Assembly (NCBI RefSeq): GCF_001634285.1
Contig: NZ_CP015438.1
Span: 1,996,001 to 2,060,000, forward strand
Direction of reading: 5' to 3'
Source of the DNA: Anoxybacillus amylolyticus
Lineage (GTDB): Bacteria > Bacillota > Bacilli > Bacillales > Anoxybacillaceae
DNA: 64,000 nucleotides
The position numbers and the translations under genes were made by a program. Shown one piece after another: positions 46,689 to 49,762 of this stretch (its first letter is position 1; every line of letters starts with the position of its first letter). Below the pieces are notes generated by a model. That model was given only the letters and a program-made list of their open reading frames with translations, was not told where the DNA came from and made no database searches.

Positions 46689-46758
46689 TGCTTTCCCCCT
46701 CTCATAAATTACATCATTTCGTACATACTACCAATAAAATAAGGAAAGGAGCTTCTTG

Positions 46759-48603
46759 ATGAAACAACTATGGCTCATTTTAGCGCTAGTCTTCCTCTTT
46801 GCCTCTGAAACAAAAGCTATGGAACGGACACCGTATACTTGGAATCTTGCCGACATTTATCGTTCCGAACGCGAGTTTACAAAAGATTATACTTTTGTTT
46901 CCGACATGCTTCCAATACTATCATCGTACCAAGGAAAACTGAAGAAGGAAAGCACGGTCGCTGAACTATTTTCCACCCACGAACAAGTCGCACGAAAGCT
47001 AGAGAAACTATCCCTATACGCCCAACTGCAACAAGATTTAAACATTGAAGACGAAAAGGCGGCACGCTTCAAAGCAAAAGTCGAAACGCTTGCTGCTCAT
47101 TATGCCACTACCGTCGCCTTTATCGAACCAGAGCTTTTATCGCTTCCAAAAGAAACGTTAGAAAAATGGAAAAAAAGTAAGCCGCTAAAAACATATGCCC
47201 GCTATTTTTCGGAACTGCTCGAACGAAAAGCGCATACGTTATCCAAAAAAGAGGAACAGCTGCTCGCCAAACTTTCCCCGCTCGCCGATGAAGCAGAAAA
47301 CATTTATAACTATGCGGCGCGCGGCGATTACACCCCTCCAGTGATGAGAATCAACGGAAAAACGGTATCGTTGACAAGCGGGAATTTTTTAAAGGCGTTA
47401 GAGCACCTAGACCGTACATACCGCAAGCAAGCGTTTCAAACGTTTTTCACAAGCTTTGAAAAAATCCAGCATACCGCAGCAGCAACTTTATATGCTTCTG
47501 TGAAAGCAGATGAACTATACGCACAAGCACGGCGATATCGTTCTAGTCTTGAAGCGGCACTCGCTAATGACGACGTACCAAAACAAGTGTTTGACAATTT
47601 GCTTTCAACTGTCAACGAACGATTGCCGTCGCTGCATCGTTATATTGAGCTAAGAAAAAAGGCGCTGCGACTCAAAGAAGTGCATAGTTACGACTTATAC
47701 GTCCCGCTTACCACAACAACTGTAACGAAAACATTTCCGATTGAAAAGGCAGAAGCCCTTATTCTTGAAGGACTAAAGCCTCTCGGAAACGATTATGTGA
47801 AACAAGTGGAATACGCTTTCCATCACCGTTGGCTCGATGTGTATCCTCGCCCAAAAAAATATACTGGCGGATATAATATCGGTGCGTACGATACACATCC
47901 GTTCATTTTATTAAACTACGATCAATCGCTAGATGAGGTGCTCACCATCGCCCATGAAATCGGTCATGCGATGAACTCCGTCTTGACGAACAGAACACAA
48001 CCATACCATTATTCCGGCCAATCCATTTTTACTGCCGAAGTTGCCTCGACCGCCAACGAATGGCTGATGATGGATTATTTATTAAAGCAAGCAAAAACGG
48101 ATGAAGAAAAACTGTACCTCCTGAACCAACAAATTGACCAGATTCGTGGGGCACTCTATACACAAGTGATGTATTCCGAATTTGAACAAGCCATTCATGA
48201 AAAAGTAGGGAAAGGAGAAAGTTTGACAGCAGAAGAATTGAACGACATGTGGCTTCGGTTGCTAAAAAAATATTACGGACCTGCGTATGCCGCTGATTCC
48301 GAAGCTGCACTCGGCTGGTTGCGCATCCCTCACTTTTACGATGCGTTTTATGTCTATAAATACGCCACCTCGCTAGCTGCTTCGTTTGAACTGATGAAAC
48401 AAATAAAAGAAGACAAAACTGGCAAAGCAACAGAGCGCTATTTGCAGTTTTTAAGTGCTGGCACATCGGACGACCCGATTCCGCTATTGCAAAAAGCTGG
48501 GGTCGATATGATGTCACCAGAGCCGCTCAACAACTTGCTTGCTTATTTTGACTCGCTCGTTACGGAAATGGAACAACTTTTGCAGAAACAAGGAAAAATA
48601 TAG
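46759..48603 (+). CDS. pepF: oligoendopeptidase F with an N-terminal signal peptide
   Basis: A 614-residue M3B zinc metallopeptidase; the active site is TIAHEIGHAMNSV (about residue 397) with the third ligand Glu in FTAEVASTANEW. Unlike the common cytoplasmic PepF, it starts with a hydrophobic segment (LWLILALVFLFA) and a possible signal-peptidase site ETKA-M near residue 21, so it is probably exported. AAAGGAG lies 7 nt before ATG 46759. The gene is divergent from topB. Confidence 0.93.
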   Translation: MKQLWLILALVFLFASETKAMERTPYTWNLADIYRSEREFTKDYTFVSDMLPILSSYQGKLKKESTVAELFSTHEQVARKLEKLSLYAQLQQDLNIEDEKAARFKAKVETLAAHYATTVAFIEPELLSLPKETLEKWKKSKPLKTYARYFSELLERKAHTLSKKEEQLLAKLSPLADEAENIYNYAARGDYTPPVMRINGKTVSLTSGNFLKALEHLDRTYRKQAFQTFFTSFEKIQHTAAATLYASVKADELYAQARRYRSSLEAALANDDVPKQVFDNLLSTVNERLPSLHRYIELRKKALRLKEVHSYDLYVPLTTTTVTKTFPIEKAEALILEGLKPLGNDYVKQVEYAFHHRWLDVYPRPKKYTGGYNIGAYDTHPFILLNYDQSLDEVLTIAHEIGHAMNSVLTNRTQPYHYSGQSIFTAEVASTANEWLMMDYLLKQAKTDEEKLYLLNQQIDQIRGALYTQVMYSEFEQAIHEKVGKGESLTAEELNDMWLRLLKKYYGPAYAADSEAALGWLRIPHFYDAFYVYKYATSLAASFELMKQIKEDKTGKATERYLQFLSAGTSDDPIPLLQKAGVDMMSPEPLNNLLAYFDSLVTEMEQLLQKQGKI

Positions 48604-48634
48604 CCGCTCCCTTTGGAAGCGGCTTATTTTTATG
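48602..48634. terminator. bidirectional terminator between pepF and yidC
   Basis: Stem AGCCGCT / AGCGGCT followed on the plus strand by TATTTTTAT; it lies between convergent genes and overlaps the pepF stop. Confidence 0.75.
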
Positions 48635-49391
48635 ATACTTGTCCGTTTTCTGCGGCTTTTGCTGCTTTAAAATGCATGCGAAAAATCAATGATTGGATAA
48701 TCGAAAAACATCCCCCAACAACCCAATAAAGCGACAATGCGGACGGAACAGAACTTGCCCCCATAAAAATCATGAGCGGCATAATATAAATCATCATCGC
48801 CATTTGCGGCATTTGTTGCTCCGTCATCGACGGTGACAGCTTCATCGAAATAAACGTCGTCACTGCCGCTAAAATCGGTAAAATAAAATACGGATCACGA
48901 TGGCCAAGTTCTACCCATAAAAACGAATGCGTCGTAATTTCTTCTGTACGCCGAATGGCGTAATAAAGCGCCATAAAAATCGGCAGTTGAATAAGCGCTG
49001 GCAAGCAACCGCTCATCGGATTTACCCCATGTTTTTGATATAGTTGCATCATTTCTTGTTGCAGCTTTTGTTGTGTTTCCATATCTTTTCCTTTGTATTT
49101 TTCTTGCAGCTTTTGCATTTCCGGACGAAGTTTTTGCATCGCTAGCGACGCTTTAAACTGCTTTAACATTAACGGCAATAACGCAAAGCGAACGACAAGC
49201 GTCAACGCAATAATCGCTAGTCCATAATTTCCGCCAAGCGCATTGCCGAGCATTAAAAGCAACTTAGACATCGGATAAACAAAATAATGATCCCACACAC
49301 CTTGGCTATGTTCATTAATTGGTGCAGTGCGGTTGCAACCACTCAGCAGTATAGCAATCGTTAATAAAACGAACATCCATTTTTTCTTCAT
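48630..49391 (-). CDS. yidC: YidC/OxaA family membrane protein insertase (SpoIIIJ/YqjG type)
   Basis: A 253-residue lipoprotein insertase that helps membrane proteins fold into the bilayer. The lipobox LLSGC puts the lipidated Cys at about 19. The Oxa1 core follows: GLAIIALTLVVRFALLPLM with the hydrophilic-groove Arg near 64, a basic coiled loop (KLRPEMQKLQEKYKGKD), then NPMSGCLPALIQLPIFMALYYAIR. ATG 49391 has AAGGAGG at 6 nt, but that site is covered by a predicted stem-loop starting at the stop codon of the upstream leader ORF. Confidence 0.94.
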   Translation of the reverse strand: MKKKWMFVLLTIAILLSGCNRTAPINEHSQGVWDHYFVYPMSKLLLMLGNALGGNYGLAIIALTLVVRFALLPLMLKQFKASLAMQKLRPEMQKLQEKYKGKDMETQQKLQQEMMQLYQKHGVNPMSGCLPALIQLPIFMALYYAIRRTEEITTHSFLWVELGHRDPYFILPILAAVTTFISMKLSPSMTEQQMPQMAMMIYIMPLMIFMGASSVPSALSLYWVVGGCFSIIQSLIFRMHFKAAKAAENGQVS

Positions 49392-49397
49392 TTTGCT

Positions 49398-49433
49398 CCT
49401 CCTTGTTTGTTTCATTTATTGCGCAACAAGGAG
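49398..49433 (-). promoter_or_regulatory. stem-loop hiding the yidC Shine-Dalgarno
   Basis: CTCCTTGTT (49433-49425) starts right after the leader stop codon TAG (49436-49434) and pairs over 9 bp with AACAAGGAG (49407-49399), which contains the yidC ribosome-binding site. The loop is 17 nt. A ribosome paused at the end of the leader ORF would cover or melt the left arm and free the site. Confidence 0.7.
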
Positions 49434-49688
49434 CTACCTTCCTTCCTCATCGGAAACATGGGGACGTTCCCACGCTGGAATTTTCCGTTGGTTCGTAACA
49501 AATAACAAGCGAAACGAAAACGGAACTCCCTGATTTCCTCGGTGTTCACCATATTGCTCCGTTTCATATAACATCACATGATGTAAAAATGATTTATATG
49601 TTCGATGGCGATTCATATAGCATTTCATCGCCATAAAAAACGCACCTATCACTAACACATATGGCAATAAATCCACGGGTGTTTCCAC
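49434..49688 (-). CDS. MifM-like leader peptide upstream of yidC
   Basis: An 84-residue protein. Residues 5-24 form a single N-terminal membrane helix (VDLLPYVLVIGAFFMAMKCY); the middle is basic and histidine-rich; the C-terminus reads RKIPAWERPHVSDEEGR. B. subtilis MifM is 95 residues, has an N-terminal membrane helix, lies directly upstream of yidC2, and stalls the ribosome through C-terminal residues that include I-x-x-W and an acidic D-E-E stretch. Here IPAW and DEE occur in the same order, though closer together. GTG 49688 has GAGGTGG upstream. The function is inferred from position and pattern. Confidence 0.65.
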   Translation of the reverse strand: METPVDLLPYVLVIGAFFMAMKCYMNRHRTYKSFLHHVMLYETEQYGEHRGNQGVPFSFRLLFVTNQRKIPAWERPHVSDEEGR

Positions 49689-49762
49689 TCAGCCACCTCT
49701 TTTCGTCCAACAATCTTACATACATAAACATAACAAATTCATGCACGAAAGAAAAGCAAATA

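Follow-up and report, generated by a model that had tools for sequence, protein, structure and literature searches.

The accessible text of the 2026 CliM paper names MifM, ApcA and CliM as arrest peptides encoded upstream of yidC (PMC13183943), and that of a 2024 survey names MifM, ApcA and uC_KYxIW before the same gene (PMC10987492). MifM (YqzJ), encoded upstream of yqjG (yidC2) in Bacillus subtilis, has an N-terminal type I transmembrane (TM) segment, a spacing of ~54 residues and an acidic cluster at its end. A stem that overlaps the MifM arrest site hides the yidC2 Shine-Dalgarno (SD) sequence and is opened by the stalled ribosome. MifM stalls at consecutive codons of the acidic cluster, and insertion of the leader by YidC ends the stall. 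CliM (uC_KYxIW), from Clostridia, is presented in the accessible text as a YidC-monitoring upstream ORF (uORF) of yidC with a TM segment, a C-terminal motif and an SD-masking stem (PMC13183943). ApcA of actinobacteria is encoded upstream of yidC2, its motif being given as RAPG in the accessible survey text (PMC10987492).

We have analyzed a leader ORF from Anoxybacillus amylolyticus, located in a stretch of 64,000 nucleotides that we refer to as the window (Table 1). Like MifM, it is a same-strand uORF of a second yidC gene, with the same type of TM segment, spacing and terminal acidic cluster, and with a stem predicted to hide the yidC2 SD and to overlap the proposed arrest site; opening of this stem by a stalled ribosome is our proposal. 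With CliM it shares the uORF position, the TM segment plus C-terminal motif, the predicted SD-masking stem and, in our reading, the monitoring of YidC, and with ApcA the place upstream of yidC2. The motif sets it apart. We have named P-type the leaders with a K-x-P and an acidic end (KIPxxE or KxPxxxD, then DEE or DDE), and W-type those resembling MifM (W[IL]....[RK]RKESPDDD). The MifM motif RIxxWIxxxxxMNxxxxDEED is absent from the P-type, which has no MN, a different spacing and only the acidic cluster in common; its K-x-P stands mostly 9-12 residues before the acids, without a W. By inspection, the K-Y-x-I-W motif of CliM and the RAPG/RAPP/RGPP-like end of the ApcA/RAPP type are likewise absent from the P-type alignments (A1 and A2). 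The comparison argues that the leader is very probably a MifM-like, YidC-sensing arrest peptide with a motif of its own, acting via an SD-hiding stem.

The leader C-terminus reads ...QRKIPAWERPHVSDEEGR-stop, and 42 nt separate the leader stop from the yidC2 start. Purine-rich stretches occur in relatives also at the place of the leader SD-like stretch, and the TM segment has acidic residues ahead and basic residues behind. The original prediction had pointed to the 84-residue ORF upstream of yidC, its N-terminal TM helix, its C-terminus and a 9-bp SD-hiding stem, and all of these were located as described. The gene 5' of the leader is YdjM-like, and no sigma-70-like promoter was found 5' of the leader. 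Beyond the terminator-like hairpin lies a convergent pepF (oligoendopeptidase F; window 46756-48603, + strand) with a signal-peptide-like N-terminus, which is unusual for PepF. A sub-threshold Rfam Thr_leader match over the yidC2 end and the terminator (25.3 bits vs 55) was rejected as chance. An in-frame ATG lies in the stem loop at window position 49415 and would lengthen YidC2 by 8 N-terminal residues, to 261 aa; since it lies upstream of the SD, it is probably unused as a start.

Table 1. Features of the leader-yidC2 locus, in window coordinates.
Feature	Position	Strand	Evidence
Leader ORF, 84 codons, GTG start 49688, TAG stop 49436-49434	49434..49688	-	translation, homologues, alignment, regional pN/pS
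Leader SD-like stretch AGAGGTGG	49693..49700	-	sequence
Leader hydrophobic segment, codons ~8-26, predicted N-out/C-in	49611..49667	-	alignment, charge and spacing statistics
Proposed arrest motif KIPAWERPHVSDEEGR, codons 69-84, K-x-P-x-x-[ED]...D-E-[ED]-G-R	49437..49484	-	alignments, pN/pS, geometry
Stem left arm CTCCTTGTT	49425..49433	-	complementarity, folding
Stem right arm AACAAGGAG	49399..49407	-	complementarity, folding
yidC2 Shine-Dalgarno AAGGAGG, mostly within right arm	49398..49404	-	sequence, pairing computation
yidC2 (second yidC gene), ATG 49391, ORF to 48630	48630..49391	-	family models, tree
Intrinsic-terminator-like hairpin 3' of yidC2	48602..48624	-	sequence

Of the 41 family genomes, 40 contained leader homologues; Anoxybacillus, Parageobacillus and Geobacillus are among the members of this family. 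A same-strand yidC lay directly 3' of the leader in 40 of the 41 family loci; in the remaining one (L040, genome G022) yidC2 is interrupted by an insertion a few codons in, and the leader and the stem stand. The insertion, found from ~1201 onward in L040, carries by eye a transposon-type ORF, and G022 has a single other YidC. The family alignment (40 rows, with L025 left out for its premature TGA) starts with ME..[DE]...Y, followed by the TM segment and an unconserved linker, and ends with RKIPxxE....xDE[ED]GR. K69, P71 and G83 were invariant, as were E2 and Y10, and R68, I70, E74, D80, E81 and R84 were conserved in at least 90% of the rows. The I-x-x-W likeness to MifM on which the original prediction leaned did not hold, with the W of IPAW being found in 2 of the 40 rows (the window species and L021) and the conserved stretch being RKIPxxE...DE[ED]GR. 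One genome (G007) has two leader-yidC loci, the leader of L025 carrying the premature TGA and that of L039 a D80G change in the acidic motif.

We have estimated pN/pS from 15 pairs of close relatives; 14 of the pairs share a genus code and one (L009-L017) spans two. The values were 0.17 for the TM segment, 0.44 for the linker, 0.18 for codons 69-84 and 0.76 for the tail beyond. Seven of the 16 motif codons (69, 71, 74, 80, 81, 83 and 84) showed no amino-acid replacement; since codons 74, 80, 83 and 84 had no synonymous change either, these four cannot separate protein from RNA constraint. The recurring tail residues PFLL and LLV are most simply taken as a side effect of the RNA arm encoded by the same codons. 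The purifying selection on the TM segment, together with a yidC directly downstream at every family locus but the one carrying the insertion, would also suit a stable small membrane protein working with YidC2, whose co-expression would be the point. We hold this to be highly improbable: the linker and the tail are variable and the sole soluble stretch that is conserved stops right at the left arm, while no second leader copy was found in the A. amylolyticus genome and neither Pfam nor NCBIfam matched the leader up to E 1. A search of PDB sequences with the leader gave no match.

In the window species a TAG is found where the two nearest relatives have CGG, so that its leader ends right after DEEGR. 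The claim that the ORF ends exactly at the start of the stem is thus correct for this species, while the other six of the seven same-genus copies read 5-9 codons into the left arm. If the window copy works, all needed parts lie at or before codon 84, and the truncated leader sets a natural bound on the possible arrest site; being an ORF that ends at R84, it would fail if the relatives stall beyond codon 84. In a working window copy, stalling at R84 would amount to termination arrest, such as the accessible text describes for CliM homologues (PMC13183943).

With the stop codon adjoining the left arm, a terminating ribosome would cover the arm in the window species. Plain translational coupling, in which the stem is opened by any ribosome that passes through the leader or terminates there, whatever the peptide sequence, would accommodate this arrangement. 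We consider such coupling improbable, given that codons 69-84 show few protein-level changes against a drifting linker. Moreover, the leader ORFs of L008 (1360-1749), L013 (1378-1752) and L041 (799-1167) have no stop before yidC2 and end 77-86 nt inside it, in another frame, which rules out termination at the stem as the general mechanism.

The two stem arms are exact 9-bp complements, with the right arm holding six of the seven SD bases. Folding of 49388-49454 returned this 9-bp stem (-16.8 kcal/mol, z = -3.43), and none of 200 dinucleotide shuffles folded as stably. In 12 sequences covering the family genus codes g1, g2 and g6, all 108 cells were standard pairs (108/108). A single compensatory (double) change was observed within the stem, a count reached by 35 of 500 shuffles; covariation is thin because the SD itself cannot vary. 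The same SD is hidden by different arms and in different registers in other genera: Parageobacillus and its relatives use GAGACCTC with GAGGTCTC, Geobacillus has GGCCCTTTCC-type arms, and the f44 family has CCTTTCCTTC before AGGAGGAAAG. These differing solutions are stronger support for SD hiding than the covariation count. The C-terminus and the stem, whose loss in relatives would have spoken against the original prediction, are both kept.

The predicted probability of the SD pairing upstream exceeded 0.8 in 64 of 70 distinct P-type loci (a set without L025, L039 and L040), in 26 of 33 W-type loci and in none of 30 SpoIIIJ-type control loci, near copies having been merged here as in the geometry and spacing counts below. 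The median pairing was 0.91 for the P-type, 0.95 for the W-type and 0.41 for the SpoIIIJ-type, against shuffle means of 0.57 (fairly high), 0.62 and 0.38, respectively. Some of the P-type loci folded poorly (such as L110, 0.29, and L235, 0.34).

The distance from the TM end to the first acid had a median of 54 residues in the P-type (62 distinct motifs; 10-90%, 49-58) and 51 in the W-type. A median of 54 is also given for MifM in the accessible survey text, where the end point is the arrest site and not the first acid (PMC10987492). As calculated from sequence only, the net charge in the P-type is -2 before and +2 after the TM segment. The K of K-x-P stood 9-12 residues before the first acid in 59 of 61 P-type loci (11 residues in 32). 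The offset from the first acidic codon to the first SD-pairing base was 16-18 nt in 46 of 62 P-type loci and 20-22 nt in 16 of 28 W-type loci, with five of the 33 W-type loci failing the acid rule of this count. The P-type offset roughly matches the expected front of a stalled ribosome. If this front edge lies some 15-16 nt from the P-site, it would be at ~49430 with the P-site at codon 82 and at ~49424 with the P-site at codon 84, so the left arm would be partly or fully covered.

According to the accessible texts, MifM stalls mainly at codons 89-92 (PMC6037786), with R79-N81 touching the tunnel constriction and W73-I74 and R69-I70 lying lower (PMC4423224). Counting as in MifM, we infer that E74 would come close to the constriction, with K69-P71 immediately beneath. 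MifM needs Met90 of uL22, as the accessible text reports (PMC4423224). The uL22 tunnel loop of A. amylolyticus reads RAMGRASAINKRTSHI, with the Met present as in two MifM genomes; of 14 genomes checked, this one included, 12 have the Met, and one P-type and one W-type genome have Gln. We take Met90 to be the Met of RAMGRAS.

The 40-row family profile, run over 397 genomes of the order, matched 11 more genomes outside the family at E < 1e-3. All 11 loci, five of which are near copies of each other, had a same-strand yidC directly 3' of the leader. Matches of this profile at E 1e-3 to 0.1 were not counted, and two of them (L071, 0.003; L072, 0.008) had no yidC in the piece. Wider profiles run over 318 genomes matched 47 (P-type) and 94 (W-type) at E <= 1e-5, counts which include the genomes that supplied profile rows, yidC having been checked for only part of the W-type matches. 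None of the 318 genomes matched both models at this threshold. Another 20 P-type matches, with E up to 2.2e-3 and none of them a profile row, were all followed by a same-strand yidC (20/20), although several are near copies of profile rows (e.g., L216 of L125, L235 of L110). Outside the family of A. amylolyticus, 31 of 31 checked matches at E 2.2e-3 or better stood directly upstream of yidC. Weak matches of the wider profiles, many of them inside unrelated long frames, were not counted. The P-type matches span eight family codes (f1, f3, f6, f11, f28, f35, f42 and f44), which is at odds with the suggested restriction to thermophilic bacilli.

We have also surveyed yidC in 63 genomes from the other 46 families of the order, obtaining 111 yidC hits and reading 80 upstream pieces; those left out mostly had the genomic placement typical of SpoIIIJ genes. 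Among the 80 pieces, 29 carried an rnpA or yidD as recognized by eye (SpoIIIJ-type), 8 a P-type leader, 33 a W-type leader, 3 an odd leader (L111, L115 and L127), 1 a W-type leader missed by the reading rule and picked up by the W-type profile (L139), and 6 none by the reading rule (L132, L138, L155, L171, L178 and L184). Five of these six are probably SpoIIIJ genes; the sixth, L155, is a second yidC without a recognized leader. Most of the other second yidC genes read carry a W-type leader. From the chosen start to just past the acids, the leaders measured 83-89 codons in 13 P-type pieces and 88-107 codons in the 33 W-type pieces. In genome G353, a TM-bearing uORF precedes both YidC genes found (L110 and L111), neither with an rnpA- or yidD-like ORF seen upstream; in genome G051, the only YidC gene found (L181) has a W-type leader.

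The W-type set includes L128, a near relative of the B. subtilis MifM with 92% identity across the 24-residue end (the MifM end sequence having been checked against PDB 3j9w). This end matched 10 of the 397 genomes at E <= 0.0011, all within one genus code, and gave no match at E <= 1 in the A. amylolyticus genome.

The likeness in place before a second yidC, in TM segment and spacing, and in SD-hiding stem could also mean that the leader is a diverged MifM ortholog, that is, the same gene with the same stalling mode and a drifted spacing. Such descent finds further support in the comparison of the P-type and W-type profiles, which align with 94.9% probability over the N-terminal 29 columns, and in two P-type genomes (G184 and G208) whose leader ORF also gives a weak match to the W-type model (E 7e-4 and 3e-4). 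However, the C-terminal motifs fall outside the profile alignment returned. A W at -9 to -16 from the acids was found in 23 of 28 W-type vs 1 of 62 P-type loci, and K-x-P in 0 of 28 vs 61 of 62, the latter figure being partly circular since the labels were given partly by eye on the motif. The 40 family rows and the 20 later loci were found by homology and not by motif; the rows of the wider P-type profile were chosen for the motif. Alignment A3 was built without L161. Together with the separation of the two models among the 318 genomes, and with the different clades of the YidC proteins described next, this leaves descent from MifM a conceivable but doubtful explanation.

Two YidC genes are encoded in the 3.16-Mb A. 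amylolyticus genome (3 contigs). The one outside the window passes the cut-off of the SpoIIIJ model (482.7 bits vs 377) and has jag as its downstream neighbour; the window gene is therefore the second YidC, as in B. subtilis. With the same model, the window YidC2 scored 335 bits, two other P-type proteins 323 and 330, and two W-type proteins 188 (the second YidC of a MifM genome) and 250. In a tree of 76 YidC proteins, the SpoIIIJ clade was supported at 100/100 and the W-type YidC, with two odd rows, at 94/97. The YidC of the P-type leaders formed one side of a branch with 77/74, which is not decisive. The four labels needed 4 changes on the YidC tree vs 35.9 in shuffles, which, with the SpoIIIJ-model scores, indicates that the leader class travels with the YidC lineage. 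This tree is the second of two and was built without L277, the second G353 YidC protein, which forms a very long branch; if it is kept, the P label needs two changes instead of one. On protein sequence, the P-type YidC clade is closer to SpoIIIJ than the YqjG type is, and in this unrooted tree the window yidC2 does not appear as the counterpart of yqjG, the ortholog of which is the MifM target.

These data shift the original prediction of a MifM-like arrest leader that opens an SD stem. Its core finds support by comparison, the I-x-x-W resemblance does not, and its alternative of an independently shaped arrest peptide fits better, the MifM end being matched at E <= 0.0011 in 10 of 397 genomes, all of one genus code, and the W-type YidC lying in another clade. 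The leader would be best placed among the YidC-monitoring arrest leaders of Bacillales as a second motif class. Its newness is judged against the descriptions of known leaders. In the accessible survey text, the MifM cluster comprises 572 sequences from 592 genomes, with an acidic stretch as the selection rule (PMC10987492); P-type leaders would probably pass that rule too and may already be among its members. Among the literature matches listed, a set that leaves supplements and most subscription journals outside, there was no description of a K-x-P motif or of such a leader in Geobacillus or Anoxybacillus.

The position, the architecture, the constraint on the motif, the predicted sequestration of the SD and the spacing all agree, by comparison, with the following mechanism, from which stalling, the stall site, release by insertion and induction of yidC2 are what we infer. 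The stem would hide the yidC2 SD and keep yidC2 normally off. A ribosome translating the leader would reach the acidic end of the motif, where the nascent K-x-P-x-x-E...DEEG segment in the exit tunnel may hold it near codons 82-84; its leading edge would then cover the left arm and free the SD. With ample YidC, the N-out/C-in TM segment, ~54 residues before the acids, would be inserted, and the pull on the chain would end the stall. When YidC is short, the stall would persist and yidC2 would be made.

On the wider scale, we lean towards the view that Bacillales have two separate kinds of YidC sensor, W-type leaders before YqjG-type genes and P-type leaders before the other YidC clade, built on a common plan with different contacts between chain and ribosome, and that nearly every second yidC read is so controlled. 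If true, the P-type would be a fourth motif class before yidC, in the order of MifM, with a different insertase paralog and a like uL22 loop. Such a class would naturally test the fixed parts of these sensors (TM segment, spacing and RNA stem) against the free part (the tunnel-binding motif). The P-type reading predicts which residues would bind the tunnel and, for Geobacillus and Parageobacillus, a signal of YidC shortage.
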